A program made the position numbers and the translations under genes. The notes beneath the pieces are model-generated. The model did no database searches, was not told the origin of the DNA, and was given only the letters and a program-made list of their open reading frames with translations. 64,000 bases of DNA, taken from contig NZ_QJTD01000002.1 in NCBI RefSeq assembly GCF_003217215.1, positions 756,654 through 820,653 of the forward strand, given 5' to 3'. Positions 12,273-63,060 of the stretch are shown in pieces; position 1 is the first letter of the stretch, and the number at the start of each line of letters is the position of its first letter. This DNA comes from Winogradskyella epiphytica (GTDB taxonomy: Bacteria > Bacteroidota > Bacteroidia > Flavobacteriales > Flavobacteriaceae).

Positions 12273-12698
12273 ATGCATATTGAAAACATATTCGAATATA
12301 TAAGAGAGATTTACCACCTAGATAAGTCGCGACTTCATTCGAATAGCAGAGAAGTTAAAGCGATTCTTCAGGCAATGGCTGAAATTGGAACAACAAAAGT
12401 TCCAGATTCAAATATCGATTTACATTATTTGATTCTATATATAGAAAAGTCATTTCAGCTTTCATTTGAGACTAATGAATCTCAAGACCCTAATGTCTGC
12501 TTTATAAAAAGTCACGAGCTTCGAGATGATTACAAAACCACCTTCACGCCTCAAGACCTCTTTAATTATTTAGCTGCAATTATCCAATCAACACCACTCC
12601 CAGATACGATTCATCAAAATCAAAAAACCCCAAGTATACCCCATCCAAAAGACGAAAAAACATTCTGGAAAATGGTCAAATTAGGAAGCCACATATAA
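12273..12698 (+). CDS. Hypothetical protein
   Basis: 141 residues, soluble and helix-rich, with no signal peptide. I do not recognise a family. The N-terminal half is amphipathic (NIFEYIREIYHLDKSRL, VKAILQAMAEIG). The C terminus has a Pro-rich linker followed by KDEKTFWKMVKLGSH. It lies 71 bases after the membrane protein on the same strand and immediately before the hairpin array, so its 3' end may be affected by array expansion. Reading-frame length and non-repetitive composition support a real gene. Confidence 0.5.
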   Translation: MHIENIFEYIREIYHLDKSRLHSNSREVKAILQAMAEIGTTKVPDSNIDLHYLILYIEKSFQLSFETNESQDPNVCFIKSHELRDDYKTTFTPQDLFNYLAAIIQSTPLPDTIHQNQKTPSIPHPKDEKTFWKMVKLGSHI

Positions 12699-12751
12699 GA
12701 AAGCTCATCTATTAAAAACAAATCGCAATTCACACCAAAACCCAAATCTAA

Positions 12752-14588
12752 GCCACAGAGCGGCGATATATTAATAGCAGGTGCAACATGTCGTTAACAA
12801 ATAAGCCACAGAGTGGCGGAATATTAATAGCGTTCATGCAATTGCAAATCCCAAATGTCAGCCGCAGAGCGGCGATATATTAATAACAGATGTAACATGG
12901 CGTTAACAATTAAGCCACAGAGTGGCGACATATTAATAGAACATATAAACACCCCACAACCAAAAGCTCCAGAGGAGCGACATATATAAAACCCGAATTT
13001 AGGCACAACAAGACGAAATAATAACCGATTTAACAAAACCCCATCATTCTGTGAAAAATTCTATAATACACAAACCCAACAATCGACGGTAATGAAAATA
13101 TACCGCTCCTATGGAGCTGTTTTATATGACCCAATCATGGTATCTACGAATATTACGCTCCTACGGAGCTAAAAACAACACTCCCTAAATTTTCTCATGA
13201 CCATTACCCCTTTTAATTAATAAAAAAAATGATAATGATTAAAACCTATTTTTCTGATCCAATTTTTACGACTAACATCAATACACCCAAATGTCAGCCG
13301 CAGAGCGGCGATATATCGATAGCAGACACAATAAGGCGTCAACATTTCAGCCACAGAGTGGCGATATATTAATAACAGGTGCAACATGTCGTTAACAAAT
13401 AAGCCACAGAGTGGCCACATATTAATAGAACATTTGAATACCCCACGTCCAAAAGCTCTAGAGGAGCGACATATATAAATTCCATATTCAACCACAGCAA
13501 TAAATATTAATCATAGGTGCAATTGCCCATCCCAACGTTTACCGCAGAGCGGCGATATATTAATAACATATACAATACGGCGTCAACAATTCAGCCACAG
13601 AGTGGCGACATATTAATAGAACATATAGACACCCCATAACCAAAAGCTCCAGAGGAGCGACATATTAACAACCCAAATTCAACCACAACAATTCATATTA
13701 ATCATAGGTGCAAGGTGCAATTGCAAATCCCAATGTCAGCCACAGAGTGGCGATATATTAATAGAACATATAGATACCCCATGTCCAAAAGCTCCAGAGG
13801 AGGGACATATTAACAACCAAAATTCAACCACAACAATACATATTAATCATAGGTGTAATTGCCCAACCCAATGTCAGCCGCAAAGCGGCGATATATTAAT
13901 AGCAGGTGCAACATGTCGTTAACAAATAAGCCACAGAGTGGCGACATATTAATCGATCATATGGATAACCAACAACCAAAAGCTCCAGAGGAGCGACATA
14001 TTAACAACCCAAATTCAACCACACCAATACATATTAATCATAGATGCAATTGCCCAACCCAATGTCAGTCGCAGAGCGGCGATATATTAATAACATATAC
14101 AATACGCATCCCAATTTCAGCCACAGAGTGGCGACATATTAATAGAACATATAGATACCCCATGACCAAAAGCTCCAGAGGAGCGACATATTAATAGCAG
14201 ATGTAACATGTCGTTAACCATGAAGCCACAGGGTGGCGACATATTAATAACGTTCATGCAATTGCGCATCCCAATGTCAGCCGCAGAGCGGCGATATATC
14301 AATAGCAAATACAATACGGCGACAATATTTCAGCCACAGAGTGGCGACATATTAATAGATCATATGGATAACACACAACCAAAAGCTCCAGAGGAGCGAC
14401 ATATTAACAACCCAAATTCAACCACACCAATAAATATTAATCATAGATACAATTGCGCATCCCAATGTCAGCCAAAGAGTGGCGACATATTAATAGAACA
14501 TATAGATACCCCATGACCAAAAGCTCCAGAGGAGCGACATATTAATAGCAGGTGCAACATGGCGTTAACCATGAAGTCACAGAGCGGC
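12752..14588 (+). repeat. Phased hairpin (REP-like) array, about 29 stem-loops
   Basis: A non-coding array of 13-base hairpins with three interchangeable 5-bp stems and usually an AGA loop: GCCGC/GCGGC, GCCAC/GTGGC and GCTCC/GGAGC. Each is followed by GAYATATTAA and similar bases. My start positions for rightward copies are 12752, 12805, 12861, 12914, 12966, 13297, 13350, 13403, 13455, 13541, 13594, 13646, 13739, 13791, 13877, 13930, 13982, 14068, 14120, 14172, 14225, 14280, 14333, 14385, 14471, 14523 and 14576. Two inverted copies are at 13105 and 13157. Consecutive starts are mostly 52-53 bp apart, with recurrent 86-bp steps. The block directly precedes a Y1 transposase gene. Confidence 0.9.
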
Positions 14589-14696
14589 GATATATTAACA
14601 AAACCCACAACAACACACAACCTATTGATTTTCAAACACATATTTCGTATTTTAATAACCTCAATTGAAATCAACAAATGATATTTCCAAATAACC

Positions 14697-15152
14697 ATGG
14701 CAAACACCTATTCACAACTCTATTTCCATATCGTTTTTGCCGTAAAAGGCAGAGCAAACCTCATTAAAACCCATTGAAAAGACGAACTCTACAAATATAT
14801 TTCAGGAATAATCACAAACAAGGATCAAAAATTAATGATCATAAACGGCATGCCGAATCACCTCCACCTCCTCATCAGCACAAAACCAAATTGCAACTTA
14901 TCAGATTTAGTAAGAGACATTAAAACCAATGCCTCGAAATGGATCAATGAAAAACGATTCGTCAACGGGAAATTCCAATGGCAAAATGGATTCGGAGCAT
15001 TTACGGTAAGTCAATCTCAACTCCAAAAAATCACAAATTATATAAAGAATCAGGAAGAACACCACAAGGTAAAATCATTCAGAGAAGAATATATCGATTT
15101 CTTAAAGGCTTATAATATCGACTTTAATACCCAATACATATTTGAAGATTAA
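14697..15152 (+). pseudogene. REP-associated tyrosine transposase (Y1/HUH, IS200-like) with one in-frame stop
   Basis: The frame from ATG 14697 encodes a complete Y1_Tnp protein (151 codons): MANTYSQLYFHIVFAVKGR, then the HUH motif H55-L56-H57 in GMPNHLHLLI, FQWQNGFGAFT, and the catalytic pair Y115/Q119 in NYIKNQEEHH. One TGA at 14775-14777 (codon 27) interrupts it; family members usually have Trp at this point (KxxWKDEL), so TGG to TGA is the simplest explanation. All catalytic residues lie downstream of the stop. A shorter product from ATG 14835 would lack the first beta strand. The enzyme class cuts single-stranded DNA beside hairpins, fitting the array just upstream. Recent inactivation or a base error are both possible. 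Confidence 0.85.
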
Positions 15153-15175
15153 CATCTTCATTTTACCCACAAAAA

Positions 15176-15203
15176 AACCTCTTAAAAATTAATTTAAGAG
15201 GTT
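15176..15203. terminator. Bidirectional terminator between transposase and immunophilin genes
   Basis: An 11-bp perfect stem (AACCTCTTAAA / TTTAAGAGGTT) with a 6-base loop. An A-tract lies on the left, which becomes a U-tract for the leftward immunophilin transcript. It sits between two convergent genes. Confidence 0.75.
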
Positions 15204-15225
15204 CTATATATTTTAAATGAATGTC

Positions 15226-16158
15226 TTATTTAACTCCCATCAACTCCACGTCAAAAACAAGGGTTGCATTTGGAGGAATAACGCCACCGGCACCTGCAGC
15301 ACCATATCCTAAATCACTAGGAATCACCAAACGCGCTTTATCACCAACGTTCAACAAGCAAATACCTTCATCCCATCCTGCGATAACCTGACCAACACCA
15401 ACTTGAAAATCTAATGGCGAATTTCTTTTGTATGATGAATCGAAAACGGTACCATCAGCCAACTGTCCTTTATAGTGTACAGAAACCATATTTCCTTTTT
15501 CTGCTTTTTTACCATCACCTTTCTGAATGATTTGGTAACGTAAACCTGATTCAGTTTCTTTAAAACCTGCAGCTAATTTATCTAATTCAGCTCGTGCAGC
15601 TTCACGCTCAGCAGCGATACGCTTTTCACGAGATCCTTCAAAAACTCTAAATGCTTCCACCGCGTTAAATTGTTCCGCAGCCTCTCCTTGTCTAATAATC
15701 TCAAGCGTTTCAATTACATCGCCTTGTGCAACGGAATCAACCACATCTTGTCCTTCTACAACCTTACCAAAAACGGTGTGCTTATTATCTAACCAATCAG
15801 TTGCAACATGAGTGATATAAAACTGACTTCCATTAGTACCAGGACCAGCATTAGCCATGGCTAAAACTCCAGGGCCGTCATGTTTTAATTCAGGATGAAA
15901 TTCATCATCAAACTTATAACCTGGATTTCCAGTTCCTGTGCCTTGTGGACAACCACCTTGAATCATAAAATCAGGAATAACTCTGTGGAACTTCAATCCA
16001 TCATAATAAGGAGTTCCTTGTGGTTTTACCGAATTTTCTAAATTTCCTTCTGCTAAAGCCACGAAATTACCTACTGTACCAGGTGTTTTCTCGAACTCTA
16101 AACTAACTAATATCTCACCTTTTGAAGTGTTGAATTTTGCGTATAAACCGTCTTGCAT
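15226..16158 (-). CDS. Cyclophilin-FKBP fusion peptidyl-prolyl isomerase
   Basis: 310 residues with two prolyl-isomerase domains. Residues ~1-165 are cyclophilin ([43 protein letters not shown]). A helical charged linker follows (about 165-200, [19 protein letters not shown]). Residues ~200-310 are FKBP ([47 protein letters not shown]). Dual-family immunophilins of this order are known from flavobacteria. It speeds Xaa-Pro isomerisation during folding. No signal peptide is visible, so it is probably cytosolic. It is monocistronic, with a good -7 box upstream and a terminator after it. Confidence 0.95.
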
Positions 16159-22596: not shown

Positions 22597-22867
22597 ACTA
22601 TTGAACCTAGGAGTTGTTACTCAGAGATTCACAGTGTGAACGCAGAGACTCACGAAGGTTTGTTGGAAGCTAGAAGCTAGAACCTCGAAGCTAGAACTTT
22701 TCGACTAAAAACTATCAACTAATCAACTCACAACAGACAACTCACAACTAACAACTCCTCACTTTTCACTTTTCACTTTTAGTTTTTCACTTTACTAATC
22801 CACTAATCCCTAATCCCAAATACCTATTCCACTATTCCCTAATCCCTAATACCTCATCGCCGATTGT

Positions 22868-22908
22868 CAGTTCGAGTAAAATTCTAACAGGAATCTCGTA
22901 TCGAGAAC
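22868..22908. repeat. TCGAG-type hairpin element (copy 2)
   Basis: It is the same element as at 22558, but here the right end TCGAGAAC is kept, so the outer TCGA arms can pair. Confidence 0.55.
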
Positions 22909-24393
22909 TATTGGAATTAAGCCGTTACACAGAGACTCGCAGAGAGAACGCAGAGTCTCACGGAGATTTGTTTGAAGCTGGAAGCTCGATGCTCGAAGCT
23001 GGAGGTTGGAAGCTCGAAGCTAGAAGTTGGACATAGAAAACTAACATTAATGGCTAAAATCGGTTAACGTTTCACACCACCTCACCGCCCCACTCCACTG
23101 CATCACCGATTCACTGCATTACCGCCTCACTCCCTAATCCCAAATACCTAATACCTATTCCACTATTCCCTAATCCCCAATCCCTAAAAACTAGAAAGAC
23201 CTCGGAAACTCGAAACTAGGAGTTGTTACTCAGAGATCCACAGAGTGAACACAGAGACTCACGGAGTTTTATTTGAAGCTCTAAGCTCGAAGCTAGAACT
23301 TTTCGACTAAAAACTATCAACTAATCAACTCACAACAGAGAACTCACAACAGACAACTCACAACTAACAACTCCTCACTTTTCACTTTTCCCTTTTCACT
23401 CCCATTCCCTAATCCCTAATCCCCAATTCCTAATCACTAATCACTAATGACTAATGACTACAAACTAGAATCTAGACCTCGGATACTAAAAGCAAGCTGT
23501 TACACAGAATCACACATAGCTCCTCGAAGAAAAACCAACCCAAGCAAATAAGAAAGTCCCAAATTTCGACAGCGTCGAAAGCTCAATTTGCAGAAATAAA
23601 GAGCGAAGAAACGGAACTGCGAAGCGCAGCTTCAAGCATGTAGTATCGATAGCGAATGGTGCGAATACCTTAAATAAATATAAGCGATATGAGTAATTTC
23701 CTCAAATTGATATGATTTTTTGGTTCGTTTTGCATCAAGGCAAAATGAACGTAGTAAATGCATGTCAGCCCCAGTGCTCCGATTGAGCGAGAAATGTATC
23801 AAGAATCTTTGAACCTAGGAGTTGTTACTCAGAGACTCGCAGAAAGAACACAAAGTTTCGCAGAGGTTTGTTGGAGGTTGGAAGCTCGATGCTCGAAGCT
23901 AGAGGTTGGATGCTCGAAGCTAGAAGTTGGACATAGAAAACTAACATTAATGGCTAAAATCGGTTAACGTTTCACACCACCTCACCGCCCCACTCCACTG
24001 CATCACCGATTCACTGCATCATCGATTCACTGCATTACCGCCTCACTCCCTAATCCCTAATCCCAAATACCTATTCCACTATTCCCTAATCCCCAATCCC
24101 TAAAAACTAGAAAGACCTCGGAAACTCGAAACTAGGAGTTGTTACTCAGAGATCCACAGAGTGAACACAGAGACTCACGGAGTTTTATTTGAAGCTCTAA
24201 GCTCGAAGCTAGAACTTTTCGACTAAAAACTATCAACTAATCAACTCACAACAGACAACTCACAACTAACAACTAACAACTCCTCACTTTTAACTTTTCC
24301 CTTTTCACACCGCCTCACCATATCACCACCTCACCATATCACCGTCTCACCAACTCACCAACTCACCGAATCACCAACTCACCGCCTAACAAC

Positions 24394-25257
24394 TCACCGC
24401 CTAACCCACTTCACCCCATTAACCACCACCAAACAAACCGCACCAGCAGCCAAGCCAACAATAAAATCACGTAAAATCGAAGGAATCCCCTCCAAGAAAT
24501 GATGTAAGTATTCAATATTATGAACAAAAATACCACCAGCCACTAAAATCAGAGCAATGGTTCCAATAACCGACAAACTCTTTATCACCCATGGTAAAGC
24601 ATTAACAAGAAAAGTACCAATACTAAATAAAAACCCTTTATTATCATCACTCTTTTCTATCAGACGCAAACCAAGATCATCCATACGAACAATCAAAGCC
24701 ACAATCCCATAAACCCCAACGGTAGCGATTAAGGCCACAATAGTCACCACAATAATTTGGTTCAACAATGGAATATTCACCACCGTGCCTAAAGCAATAA
24801 TGACTATTTCAACAGATAGAATGAAATCGGTGATTATGGCCGACTTCACCTTCGCCTTCTCTTGTTCTAAACGTTCTTCTGGCGTGTAATCCGTTTTTAA
24901 ATCCGTAACCACCGCCTTTTCATGAGGCACTATATATTCATAAATTTTCTCGGCACCTTCATAAGCTAGGTACAAACCACCAATCATTAATATCACAATC
25001 ACCGACCACGGTAAAAAGGCACTCAACAGAAAAGCCAAAGGGAGAATAATCAGCTTGTTAATAAAAGAACCTTTAGTAATCGCCCAAAGCACAGGAATCT
25101 CACGAGACGACACAAAGCCTGAGGCTTTTTCTGCATTTACCGCCAAATCATCCCCTAAAATCCCAGCAGTTTTTTTAGTCGTTATTTTGGTCATTGCAGC
25201 AACATCGTCCATAATTACCGCGATATCGTCTAATAATGCAAAAAATCCTGAAGCCAT
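24394..25257 (-). CDS. DUF808 family membrane protein
   Basis: 287 residues matching DUF808 (YedI family): N-terminal MASGFFALLDDIAVIMDDVAAMTKITTKKTAGILGDDLAVN, which is the most conserved block, then about six hydrophobic segments, and the motif LAYEGAEKIYEYIVPH after TM2. The function is unknown; it is predicted to sit in the inner membrane. It has full family length. It is the downstream gene of a short leftward pair with pssA, and its stop lies at the edge of the repeat field. Confidence 0.9.
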   Translation of the reverse strand: MASGFFALLDDIAVIMDDVAAMTKITTKKTAGILGDDLAVNAEKASGFVSSREIPVLWAITKGSFINKLIILPLAFLLSAFLPWSVIVILMIGGLYLAYEGAEKIYEYIVPHEKAVVTDLKTDYTPEERLEQEKAKVKSAIITDFILSVEIVIIALGTVVNIPLLNQIIVVTIVALIATVGVYGIVALIVRMDDLGLRLIEKSDDNKGFLFSIGTFLVNALPWVIKSLSVIGTIALILVAGGIFVHNIEYLHHFLEGIPSILRDFIVGLAAGAVCLVVVNGVKWVRR

Positions 25258-28454: not shown

Positions 28455-29453
28455 GCCTATTCCATTTTCCAACTTTAACCTTTTCTCCCCTCTGAAGTCT
28501 ATATCAAAAACCTAGTGGTATAGCCCTCAGCCAACTTACTTTTGCCTTCATTTTAAGGTAAAATACAAGCTATTTTTCTCATAAAACGAACATACCCTTT
28601 ATTCGAAGTCACTTCGGAGTCAATACGGAGTCAATTGGGAGTGAGGGGGTGATGCGGTGAGTTGGTTATGCAGTGAGGTGGTGTGAAAAGAATTTTAGTT
28701 GGTAGACGTTAGTTTTTAGTCGGAAAGTTCTAGCAGCGAGCATCCAACTTCGAGCCTCCAGCATCCAACTTCCAACAAACCTCCGTGACTCTCCGCGCCT
28801 CCTCTATAAATCTCCGCGTAACAACTTCGAGCATCCAACTTCTAGCCTCGAGCTTCCAACTTCTAGCATCCAGCTTCGAGCATCCAACCTCCAATAAACC
28901 TCCGCGAACCCGTATCTCCCAACTACCAACTAAATACTACCACCTAATGACTTCCCACTGTCACCTCGAGTGAAATTCCAACTGGAATTTTGTATCGAGA
29001 GGCAATTACATAAAAACTTAGTCTCCGCGAACCTCCGCGCCTCCTCTATAATTCTCTGCGTAACAGCTTCCAACTTCCAACTTCCAATCGTCTAGATTCT
29101 AAATTTGAGTTATGTGTCGACTGTTGTGATTTGAATGGGATTAGGCATTAGGTATTAGGAAATAGGTATTAAGGATTAGGGAGTTGAAGTGAAACGGGAA
29201 GAGTAAAAAGTCTTTAGTTTGTAGACGTTAGTTTTTAGTCGGAAAGTTCTAGCAACGAGCTTCCAACTTCGAGCCTCCAACTTCCAACAAACCTCCGTGA
29301 CTCTCCGCGTGCCCTCTGCGAATCTCCGCGTAACAACTTCGAGCATCCAACTTCTAGCTTCGAGCCTCCAACTTCCAACAAACCTCCGTGACTCTCCGCG
29401 TCTCCTCTGCGAATCTCCGCGTAACAACCTCCAACTTCCAGCTTCCAACACCC
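28455..29453. repeat. Non-coding repeat field, inverted relative to 22.5-24.4 kb
   Basis: There is no gene. It consists mostly of CTTCCAACTTCxAGC, CCTCCGTGACTCTCCGCG and TCTCCGCGTAACAACTTC units. These are the reverse complement of the families at 22.5-24.4 kb (GCTxGAAGTTGGAAG, CACGGAGxTTTGTTGGAAG, CGCAGAGACTC). Two ~110-bp near-copies lie at about 29230-29340 and 29345-29450. The first ~150 bases (28455-28600) are unique AT-rich sequence. Frames at 28785 and 29176 are translated repeat. Confidence 0.85.
28964..29002. repeat. TCGAG-type hairpin element (best copy)
   Basis: CCTCGAGTGAAATTCCA at the left and TGGAATTTTGTATCGAGAGG at the right can fold: an inner AAATTCCA/TGGAATTT stem with a 2-base loop and an outer CCTCGA/TCGAGG-type stem. 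It is the most complete of the three copies in the window. Confidence 0.65.
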
Positions 29454-36592: not shown

Positions 36593-37222
36593 ACCCAGCT
36601 CCTTCCTTTAGCCAAAGGAAGGTGGTTTTTGCGCCAGCAAAAATCGGAAGGTTTGACCTAAAAGGCGAAGCACTTTTAAAAAGTCAATTTAACTCCTCCA
36701 CAACCAACAACAAACCATTCATAACCTTTCCAACCCCAACCAAGCTCCTTCCTTTAGCCAAAGGAAGGTGGTTTTTGCAACAGCAAAAATCGGAAGGTTT
36801 CACCTAAAAGGCGAAGCACTTTTAAAAAGTCAATTAATATAACAACTTAGCGCTTCCCCAATCAAAAATCAAAAATCCTCAATCAACAATCTCCAACCCC
36901 AAATCTCCATACCAACCAAGCTCCTTCCTTCAGCCAAAGGAAGGTGGTTTTTGCAACAGCAAAAATCGGAAGGTTTGACCTAAAAGGCGAAGCACTTTTA
37001 AAAAGTCAATTAATATAACAACTTAGCGCTTCTCCAATCAAAAATCAAAAATCCTCAATCAACAATCTCCAATCAACAACCTCCAACCCCAAATCTCCAT
37101 ACCAACCCAGCTCCTTCCTTCAGCCGAAGGAAGGTGGTTTTTGTGCCAACAAAAATCGGAAGGTTTGACCTAAAAGGCGAAGCACTTTTAAAAAGTCAAT
37201 TAATATAACAACTTAGCGCTTC
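36593..37222. repeat. Fourfold hairpin repeat inside the polysaccharide cluster
   Basis: Four copies of a ~110-bp unit, with CTCCTTCCTT starting at 36599, 36745, 36921 and 37101. Each unit has three inverted repeats: CCTTCCTTT-AGCC-AAAGGAAGG, TTTTTGC-xxCA-GCAAAAA and ACTTTT-A-AAAAGT. Copies 2-4 also share a right flank reading AATTAATATAACAACTTAGCGCTTC. Changes within copies are few (TTTAGCCAAA or CTTCAGCCGAA). No gene is present between 36512 and 37342; open frames here are translated repeat. Confidence 0.88.
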
Positions 37223-37236
37223 TCCAATCAAAAATC

Positions 37237-37350
37237 AAAAATCCTCAATCTCCAATCTTCAATCTCCAATCTTCAATCTCCAATCTCCAATCTCCAATCT
37301 TCAATCTCCAATCTCCAATCTTCAATCAACAATCTCCAATCTTCAATCAA
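37237..37350. repeat. CAATCTCCAATCTTCAATCTCC tandem tract
   Basis: Tandem 7- to 8-base units (CAATCTC, CAATCTT, CAATCAA) run into the last codons of the following glycosyltransferase gene, which ends in the tract at 37343. This suggests that the C terminus of that protein may have been reshaped by repeat expansion. Confidence 0.7.
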
Positions 37351-62669: not shown

Positions 62670-62741
62670 AGCGAAGGAGCGAGCTGGCGCATGGGCAGAA
62701 TTTGCCATAGTGAAACGAAGGCAAAGAAAGGGGTGTTCAAA

Positions 62742-62807
62742 CTCCGTACTTACTCCGTACTTACTCCGTACTAACTCCGTACTAACTCCGTACTAACTCC
62801 GTATCTA
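62742..62807. repeat. 11-bp tandem repeat, about six units
   Basis: Units of CTCCGTACTTA then CTCCGTACTAA, with the last degenerate (CTCCGTATCTAA). The first two and last three differ only at one base. Such tandem repeats are prone to change in copy number. Confidence 0.8.
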
Positions 62808-63060
62808 ACTTCTACAAAAACAGAAAACACTAAAAACATAAAAAAGCACCAAAACCGCCAAAAACATTAAAAAACATTAAAAAACATTAAAAACAACCAT
62901 ACTAAACCATAACACCAAAAACCTTCAAATCACTAGAAAACAGAAATTTAAAACAACTTTAAACAATAACAACCCAAAACAACCAAAACCAAAACAGCAT
63001 TCTAAAATCAGCCATAATTTAGCCTTATGATTGTGACAACAGCTGTGACATCTGAAATTT

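Follow-up and report, generated by a model that had tools for sequence, protein, structure and literature searches.

In REPtrons a mostly single-copy Y1 transposase gene lies between inverted palindromes, further copies of which are clustered or dispersed, and repeat and enzyme co-evolve, according to the parts of Nunvar (2010, PMC2817692) and Corneloup (2021, PMC8266576) drawn on here. In the portions used of the classification by Quentin et al. (2018, PMC6006769), REPs are called automatically by a GT[AG]G located 0-2 nt 5' of a 7-20-nt stem, no REP is listed for TnpA_Y1 subclass 1.2, which is described as "generally without" terminal structures, and subclasses 2.6 and 3 are said to have 'atypical' structures. 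Insertion of IS200/IS605 elements takes place 3' of a short target sequence (excerpts of PMC5934647), and this is the model adopted here. One-end-tagged palindromes, head-tail dimers and clusters are features of the GTAG and CGTC superfamilies, and CGTC repeats are reported in Bacteroidetes (PMC3733652, sections used here). RayT genes are reported in Chryseobacterium in a paper whose excerpted text does not mention repeats (PMC11194056). Among the open-licence PubMed Central matches listed, judged by title and start of abstract, we found no description of the repeats reported below.

These repeats form a tandem array beside a Y1 transposase gene in a 64,000-nt stretch of the Winogradskyella epiphytica genome (the window). 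The REPtron features given above recur here, and by this analogy the transposase appears to work like a REPtron that lacks the GTAG foot. The original prediction had drawn the comparison with REP/RAYT systems, and the flanking hairpins and inward tails found in relatives bear it out. The differences are an IS200-type protein that falls below the REP_Tyr_transpos cut-off (33 against 80), a GTAG/GTGG 5' foot that is nearly absent, the ~50-nt spacing and the same-strand tandem arrays. As for IS608 and ISDra2, the predicted HUH Y1 fold is common to both sides and the NCBIfam IS200/IS605 cut-off is passed. In IS608 the hairpins of both ends are on the same strand, whereas here many relatives have inward-pointing tails on both sides of the gene, and this genome has a single copy of the gene. 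Unlike the class 2 transposases (RAYTs) with their high genome copy number, the repeat model gave at least 39 matches at E<1 in this genome, all within two arrays. Since the automatic REP rule requires both a 5' GT[AG]G and a 7-20-nt stem, 5-bp hairpins tagged on the 3' side do not fit it as worded in the text used (PMC6006769), and in contrast to the GTAG and CGTC superfamilies as covered in PMC3733652 the units have 5-bp stems followed by a 3' tail that carries RTAG. The nearest match is subclass 1.2, again as far as the portions used extend: the Y---Q--HH, WQ and HuH motifs, the low copy number and the occurrence in Bacteroidota are alike, and the proteins of that subclass, from Bacteroidetes and Cyanobacteria, have ~148-150 aa (PMC6006769), the window gene having 151 codons plus stop. 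However, the absence of REPs reported there appears to be contradicted by hairpins, scored without a tail filter, within 250 nt of the gene in 91 of 97 deduplicated loci, and by the orientation-specific tails.

A hairpin array beside an interrupted Y1 transposase gene

By eye we listed 27 hairpin+tail units in the window, with starts from 12752 to 14576 and the last tail ending at 14601; imperfect stems were kept and tails lacking a hairpin were left out. The units fall into two blocks with a 331-bp interval between them:

12752..12991, + strand: first block, five hairpin+tail units (GCCAC/GCGGC hybrid, GCCAC, GCCGC, GCCAC, GCTCC)
13092..13117, - strand: inverted hairpin GCTCC-ATA-GGAGC (13105-13117) of another unit type, tail GGTATATTTTCAT; weak model match (E 0.38)
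13144..13169, - strand: inverted hairpin GCTCC-GTA-GGAGC (13157-13169), tail GTAATATTCGTAG; model E 6.7e-4, the unit being among those used to build the model
13297..14601, + strand: main block, 22 hairpin+tail units, mostly 52-56-nt modules with some 33-nt hairpin-less modules between
13672..13704, + strand: 33-nt module without hairpin, ending ATATTAATCA
13817-13849, 14008-14040 and 14411-14443: further 33-nt hairpin-less modules
14625..14651, + strand: possible decayed unit (low confidence), TTGA-TTT-TCAA then ACACATATTTCGTATT, 49 nt past the last clear unit
14697-15152, + strand: Y1 HUH transposase gene, TnpA_Y1 subclass 1.2-like (NHLH, WQ, YIKNQEEHH)

Each unit consists of a 5-bp stem, a 3-nt loop that is almost always AGA and a 13-nt tail close to GAYATATTAATAG, in the array mostly GAYATATTAAYAR with variants such as ATATATAAA. 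The stems are GCCGC/GCGGC, GCCAC/GTGGC and GCTCC/GGAGC plus a few hybrids, and the earlier claim that three stem types swap both sides at once was confirmed: in the 21 distinct rows of the 27 units (105 cells), both sides had changed in 16 cells against 4.4 in shuffles, and pairing reached 95.2% against 82.7%. The both-side changes are confined to two of the five stem pairs and thus represent few independent events. Across species, with the relatives' units preselected for 5-bp stems, 32 both-side cells were found against 8.2 in shuffles, and both comparisons support the predicted selection on pairing.

Both inverted hairpins sit inside the 331-bp gap, where they make up a second unit type inverted to the main units (13092-13169, minus strand), one tail being ATATTCGTAG. 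Similar inverted pairs with two tail types occur in another genome, G016 (L185). No inverted unit was seen 3' of the window's own transposase gene.

The spacers of the window array recur as well, and there is a 191-bp higher-order repeat. A CRISPR array was ruled out by the recurring spacers and varying stems; of nine neighboring window genes, only the RecQ gene matched Cas-labelled models, those of helicases (best 25 of 34 families). An Rfam RNA was likewise rejected, as no family reached its gathering score.

Left of the array, a 141-aa ORF at 12273-12698 looks similar to the C-terminal region of a restriction-modification enzyme of type ISP/IIG (a Pfam match just under the cut-off; PADLOC E 5e-4) and on these matches is probably a remnant of such an enzyme. 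On the minus strand of 12752-14535, many array hairpins have T-rich DNA on their 3' side and scored as terminator-like. Fields of short tandem repeats at 22724-24405, 28601-29449 and 36736-37348 look by eye unlike the hairpin array; their units are 7-mers such as CTAATCC and CAATCTC and a 190-bp unit present 2.9 times. At 62740-62895, tandem AACTCCGTACT (6.4 copies) is followed by AAAAACATTA repeats.

The transposase and its relatives

The transposase gene is interrupted by an in-frame TGA (14775-14777) and was the only Y1_Tnp match found in the genome. Its motifs appear to match TnpA_Y1 subclass 1.2, the comparison covering only the motifs of Table 1 (PMC6006769). Relatives have the Y---Q--HH motif in 94 of 97 cases and WQ in 96 of 97. 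For an intact relative a confident fold was predicted (pLDDT 90.5), nearest to the ISDra2 and IS608 TnpA proteins and then to the E. coli RAYT. Two intact relatives scored 72.5 and 72.3 bits against NCBIfam NF033573 (IS200/IS605), past the cut-off of 55, and the 3' piece of the window protein alone scored 45.7. Against REP_Tyr_transpos all three failed the cut-off of 80 (33.4 and 32.3 for the relatives, 34.3 for the window 3' piece). The NCBIfam cut-off places the protein outside the RAYTs. The repeats, for their part, differ from canonical REPs.

Hairpins flanking the gene in relatives

We scanned 107 relative loci, mostly from Bacteroidota (80 from named records and 27 from a family search); L061, L069 and L107 were removed from the unit list. 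Within 600 nt of tnpA (170 kb) there were 41 window-type hairpin+tail matches against two in the 746 kb beyond; these are spread over 20 of the 107 loci, at least three loci fetched twice supply five of the 41, and a few matches look like chance. Hairpin density among the loci listed, duplicates included, was 5-14 per kb at 0-150 nt from the gene against 0.5-0.7 per kb at 2-6 kb, the far control DNA in both density comparisons being probably mostly coding.

The tails are oriented. Of 110 upstream hairpins, 43 had a tail ending in TAG or RTAA that pointed inward and 3 had one that pointed outward; of 145 downstream hairpins the numbers were 49 and 13. At 25 of 92 loci both sides had inward tails and at none did both point outward. 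In the main subfamily, named MANTY after the N-terminus of its protein, tail information was 4.56 bits in the right orientation and 2.16 in the wrong one, with a weaker contrast in other subfamilies (2.75/1.81, 3.76/2.00 and 4.29/3.13 bits). RTAG stood at tail positions 10-13 in 86 of 123 units, a set preselected by tail score, and the GTAG/GTGG 5' foot in one. By eye the tails vary with subfamily in the loci listed (ATATTNRTAG, forms like GAACACGAATAG, and TTAATTCAG). Over 86 loci tail distance followed protein distance with a Mantel r of 0.54, against 0.14 for the wrong orientation; the latter is weak but beyond all 2000 permutations, and we count it against the reading preferred below. An exception to the orientation is G016 (L037), which has same-strand hairpins at both sides.

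MANTY hairpins in many of the loci listed lie ~8-24 and 60-70 nt 5' of the start codon and ~7-18 and 55-60 nt 3' of the last sense codon. For sides with two hairpins inside 120 nt, the distance between them is 48-54 nt in 17 of 24 cases upstream of the gene and in 22 of 26 downstream (39 of 50; mean 50.7, sd 1.5, taken over only the 39 values within 48-54). The DNA between these 48-54-nt pairs resembles shuffled background when the proteins are less than 75% identical. Hence the ~50-nt spacing is kept across species of one subfamily without its sequence. The MSQSL-type subfamily has, among others, spacings near 68-72 in the loci listed, so the ~50-nt figure is not universal. Genome G042 has many 49-bp spacings, and G053 has 25. 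At L181 (G042), longer hairpins (~8-9 bp, e.g. GACCCGCC...GGCGGGTC) stand beside 5-bp units and have the same kind of tail and spacing.

Such positions might suggest that the hairpins are regulatory elements of tnpA, leader or end-of-gene structures, and the array an exaggerated leader. On 19 of 24 measured upstream sides the inner hairpin is 8-24 nt from the start codon, and on 21 of 26 downstream sides it is 7-18 nt from the last sense codon. The tails at L163 and L165 end no more than two bases from the start codon, and 12600-15260 of the window contains 14 terminator-like sites where 2.5 are expected, 12 of the 14 being on the minus strand. Yet the second array of this genome, described below, is far from any Y1 transposase, and G016, G042 and G214 carry copies away from the gene, and we consider this explanation very improbable. 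At L163 and L165 the hairpin+tail adjoining the start codon might permit self-regulation.

Distribution of the repeats among genomes

In the family sample a repeat model match at E<=0.01 occurred in 10 of 22 genomes with the transposase and in 2 of 177 without it. The latter two, G044 and G047, which have no tnpA at the cut-offs used, gave matches near E 0.007, with about two such expected by chance, and the matched sequences look like plausible units. Among 60 Winogradskyella genomes, matches at E<=0.02, a line set after the matches were known, were found only in this genome (G000), G157 and G214, exactly the three of the 60 with a tnpA 75-85% identical to the query. Model R1 was partly built from loci of G000, G184, G016, G042 and G007, whose flank matches are therefore circular; it contains no loci of G157 or G214, on which the genus result depends. 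Three other Winogradskyella genomes had single matches at E 0.03-0.09; that of G230 (E 0.04) looks like a unit, and this genome is tnpA-negative at the cut-offs used. The repeat-like units without a detected gene (G044, G047 and G230) count against the preferred reading. Five Winogradskyella genomes with a 41-50% identical paralogue gave no match at E<=0.1, with a model that was not made for their kind.

In G214 ~1 kb and one ORF separate the transposase gene from an FKBP-type gene, the same one as in the window. Further repeat copies away from the gene were found in G016, G042 and G214. In all, G016 gave at least 22 and G042 at least 27 matches at E<=0.5 (38 candidates scored per genome). All such counts are lower bounds, the first-look candidates scored per genome numbering 150 for this genome, 38 for the family and 127 for the genus. 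The link to a Y1 transposase that had been proposed from the window alone is thus upheld by flanking hairpins, orientation-specific tails and co-occurrence in the genomes of the genus. The array belongs with the transposase.

The second array of this genome lies at C1:618589-619105, a contig on which no Y1 gene was found. Scoring 150 of 2356 first-look candidates gave no dispersed copies, only the two arrays. Outside the arrays the tail pattern matched 34 times against 26 for the reversed control pattern. We checked 19 stretches covering 20 of these 34 matches; 18 of the 19 yielded a tail and only L159 paired fully, with an AT-rich stem. A 329-aa ORF (L140 8541-9530, G000:C1), which we take to be an IS110-type transposase, lies ~2.4 kb from the second array.

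Array pitch and module length

Starts were predicted to be 52-53 bp apart almost everywhere. This was a little strong: 18 of the 25 window spacings, from which the 331-bp gap was excluded, have these values, the rest being 55, 56, 86 (four) and 93. In the second array the spacings are 49, 27, 51, 27, 49, 52, 65, 27, 64 and 27. A search for the same pitch elsewhere had also been suggested; ~50 nt is kept in one subfamily, the second array is mixed and G042 uses 49.

When the window array was cut after each tail, modules of 52, 53, 55, 56, 60 and 33 nt resulted, with extra pieces of 383 and 85 nt where two units with variant tails were left uncut; the second array gave modules of 52, 51, 50, 49, 27 and 14 nt. 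The 86- and 93-bp intervals arise because a 33-nt module is added to one of 53 or 60. Since both arrays, cut at the tail end, fall into a few set lengths, the pitch is module length. A module consists of a ~23-30-nt lead, a hairpin (5-bp stem, 3-nt loop) and a 13-nt tail that ends in ATATTAATAG.

This bears on the view that the hairpins form a helically phased DNA-protein scaffold, standing 52-53 bp apart on one side of the helix. Besides the 18 of 25 spacings, the resultant at 10.5 bp is 0.78 for consecutive spacings, and the 22 main-block starts reach 0.80 with a best-fit period of 10.57. However, the resultant for all 27 starts together is 0.26 at 10.5 bp per turn (0.60 at 10.6), and when the main block's own spacings were reordered, 1403 of 2000 orders did equally well. 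Moreover, spacings of 27, 49, 51, 52, 64 and 65 occur in the second array, and G042 and G053 have the 49 and 25 already mentioned. The scaffold is exceedingly improbable, and the predicted placement of all hairpins on one helical face did not survive the comparison. Nor is the array best explained, as had been suggested, by templated copying or a DNA-protein assembly; the better reading is that modules are joined where the tail ends in TAG.

In the second array a 27- or 14-nt module is present or absent between like neighbors, the change falling at the tail end. In a change-point test on pairs alike to the left and not to the right, 61 of 106 window pairs and 14 of 22 second-array pairs broke between -3 and +1 relative to the tail end, most of the remaining breaks being at the far edge of the comparison; with the right sides alike, breaks were scattered. 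Because shared homology ends at the tail end, cleavage and recombination give the same outcome in this test. Among ten leads, 5 of 45 pairs scored as related, and the two leads whose donors were sought in the genome occurred only inside their own arrays.

Discussion

We think it probable that the array arose by tandem expansion of a REP-like repeat cognate to a subclass 1.2-type Y1 HUH transposase, TnpA cutting and joining modules at TAG. This reading is based on the hairpins with their covariation and tail, the inward-tailed flanking hairpins of relatives and the co-occurrence with tnpA, and further on the spacing kept without sequence, the co-variation of tail and transposase, the set module lengths and the predicted HUH Y1 fold. 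A single-stranded state, for example at a replication fork, would expose the hairpins. TnpA would recognize hairpin+tail on one strand, bind two same-strand hairpins ~50 nt apart, cut just 3' of the tail TAG and join the ends, and modules would be excised or inserted TAG to TAG. As the tail would be both end and target, units would be inserted one behind another and the array would grow at its own tails. The two-hairpin spacing may reflect the complex that synapses neighboring units. Cleavage and joining just 3' of TAG, the single-stranded intermediates and the two-hairpin complex are inferred. Several results weigh against this reading. The information in the 5' foot is at most 0.35 bit, so no IS608-like guide can be named. 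A search for empty sites recovered none, either at the window locus, which holds a different ORF in G202 and G203, or at one G042 array compared with G259 and G257; the flanking DNA of the relatives is too diverged or different. Among the candidates scored, this genome also gave no dispersed copies. With the local gene interrupted, both arrays are probably relics or are now altered only by recombination.

A passive satellite would account for the array differently: the units were once linked to the transposase, and growth now proceeds only by replication slippage or unequal recombination. Consistent with this, an in-frame stop interrupts the local transposase gene, there are long copied blocks and a 191-bp higher-order repeat, the change points lie largely where shared homology ends, and the two leads traced are found only within their arrays. 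With hairpin and tail common to all modules, the same TAG-bounded gains and losses would follow from slippage or homologous recombination, and later array growth could be explained by recombination. Slippage alone, however, does not place unrelated leads at the same post-tail position. It also leaves unexplained the 14- and 27-nt modules beside 50-nt ones and what is seen at intact genes of other species, namely how the tails are oriented, how the hairpins are spaced and how the tails co-vary with the protein. As a full account we regard it as unlikely.

In a third account, which we hold to be distinctly unlikely, the array is an integron-like store onto which the transposase adds single-stranded inter-hairpin segments TAG to TAG. 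Hairpin+tail would then be both end and landing site of a standing array, and unrelated leads would pile up as cassettes under a fixed grammar of ~50, 33, 27 and 14 nt.

On the preferred reading of a tandemly expanded cognate repeat, a transposase branch near the IS200 type, reported to be without IS ends or REPs, appears to own repeats in many Bacteroidota. The repeat layout, a 5-bp hairpin with a 3'-side tag and ~50-nt pairs in one subfamily, is unlike the REP types described in the portions of the literature drawn on here. The loci provide a ready set of enzyme-substrate pairs with a cut site predicted to the base, and bear on how IS200-type transposases became domesticated repeat-managing enzymes.
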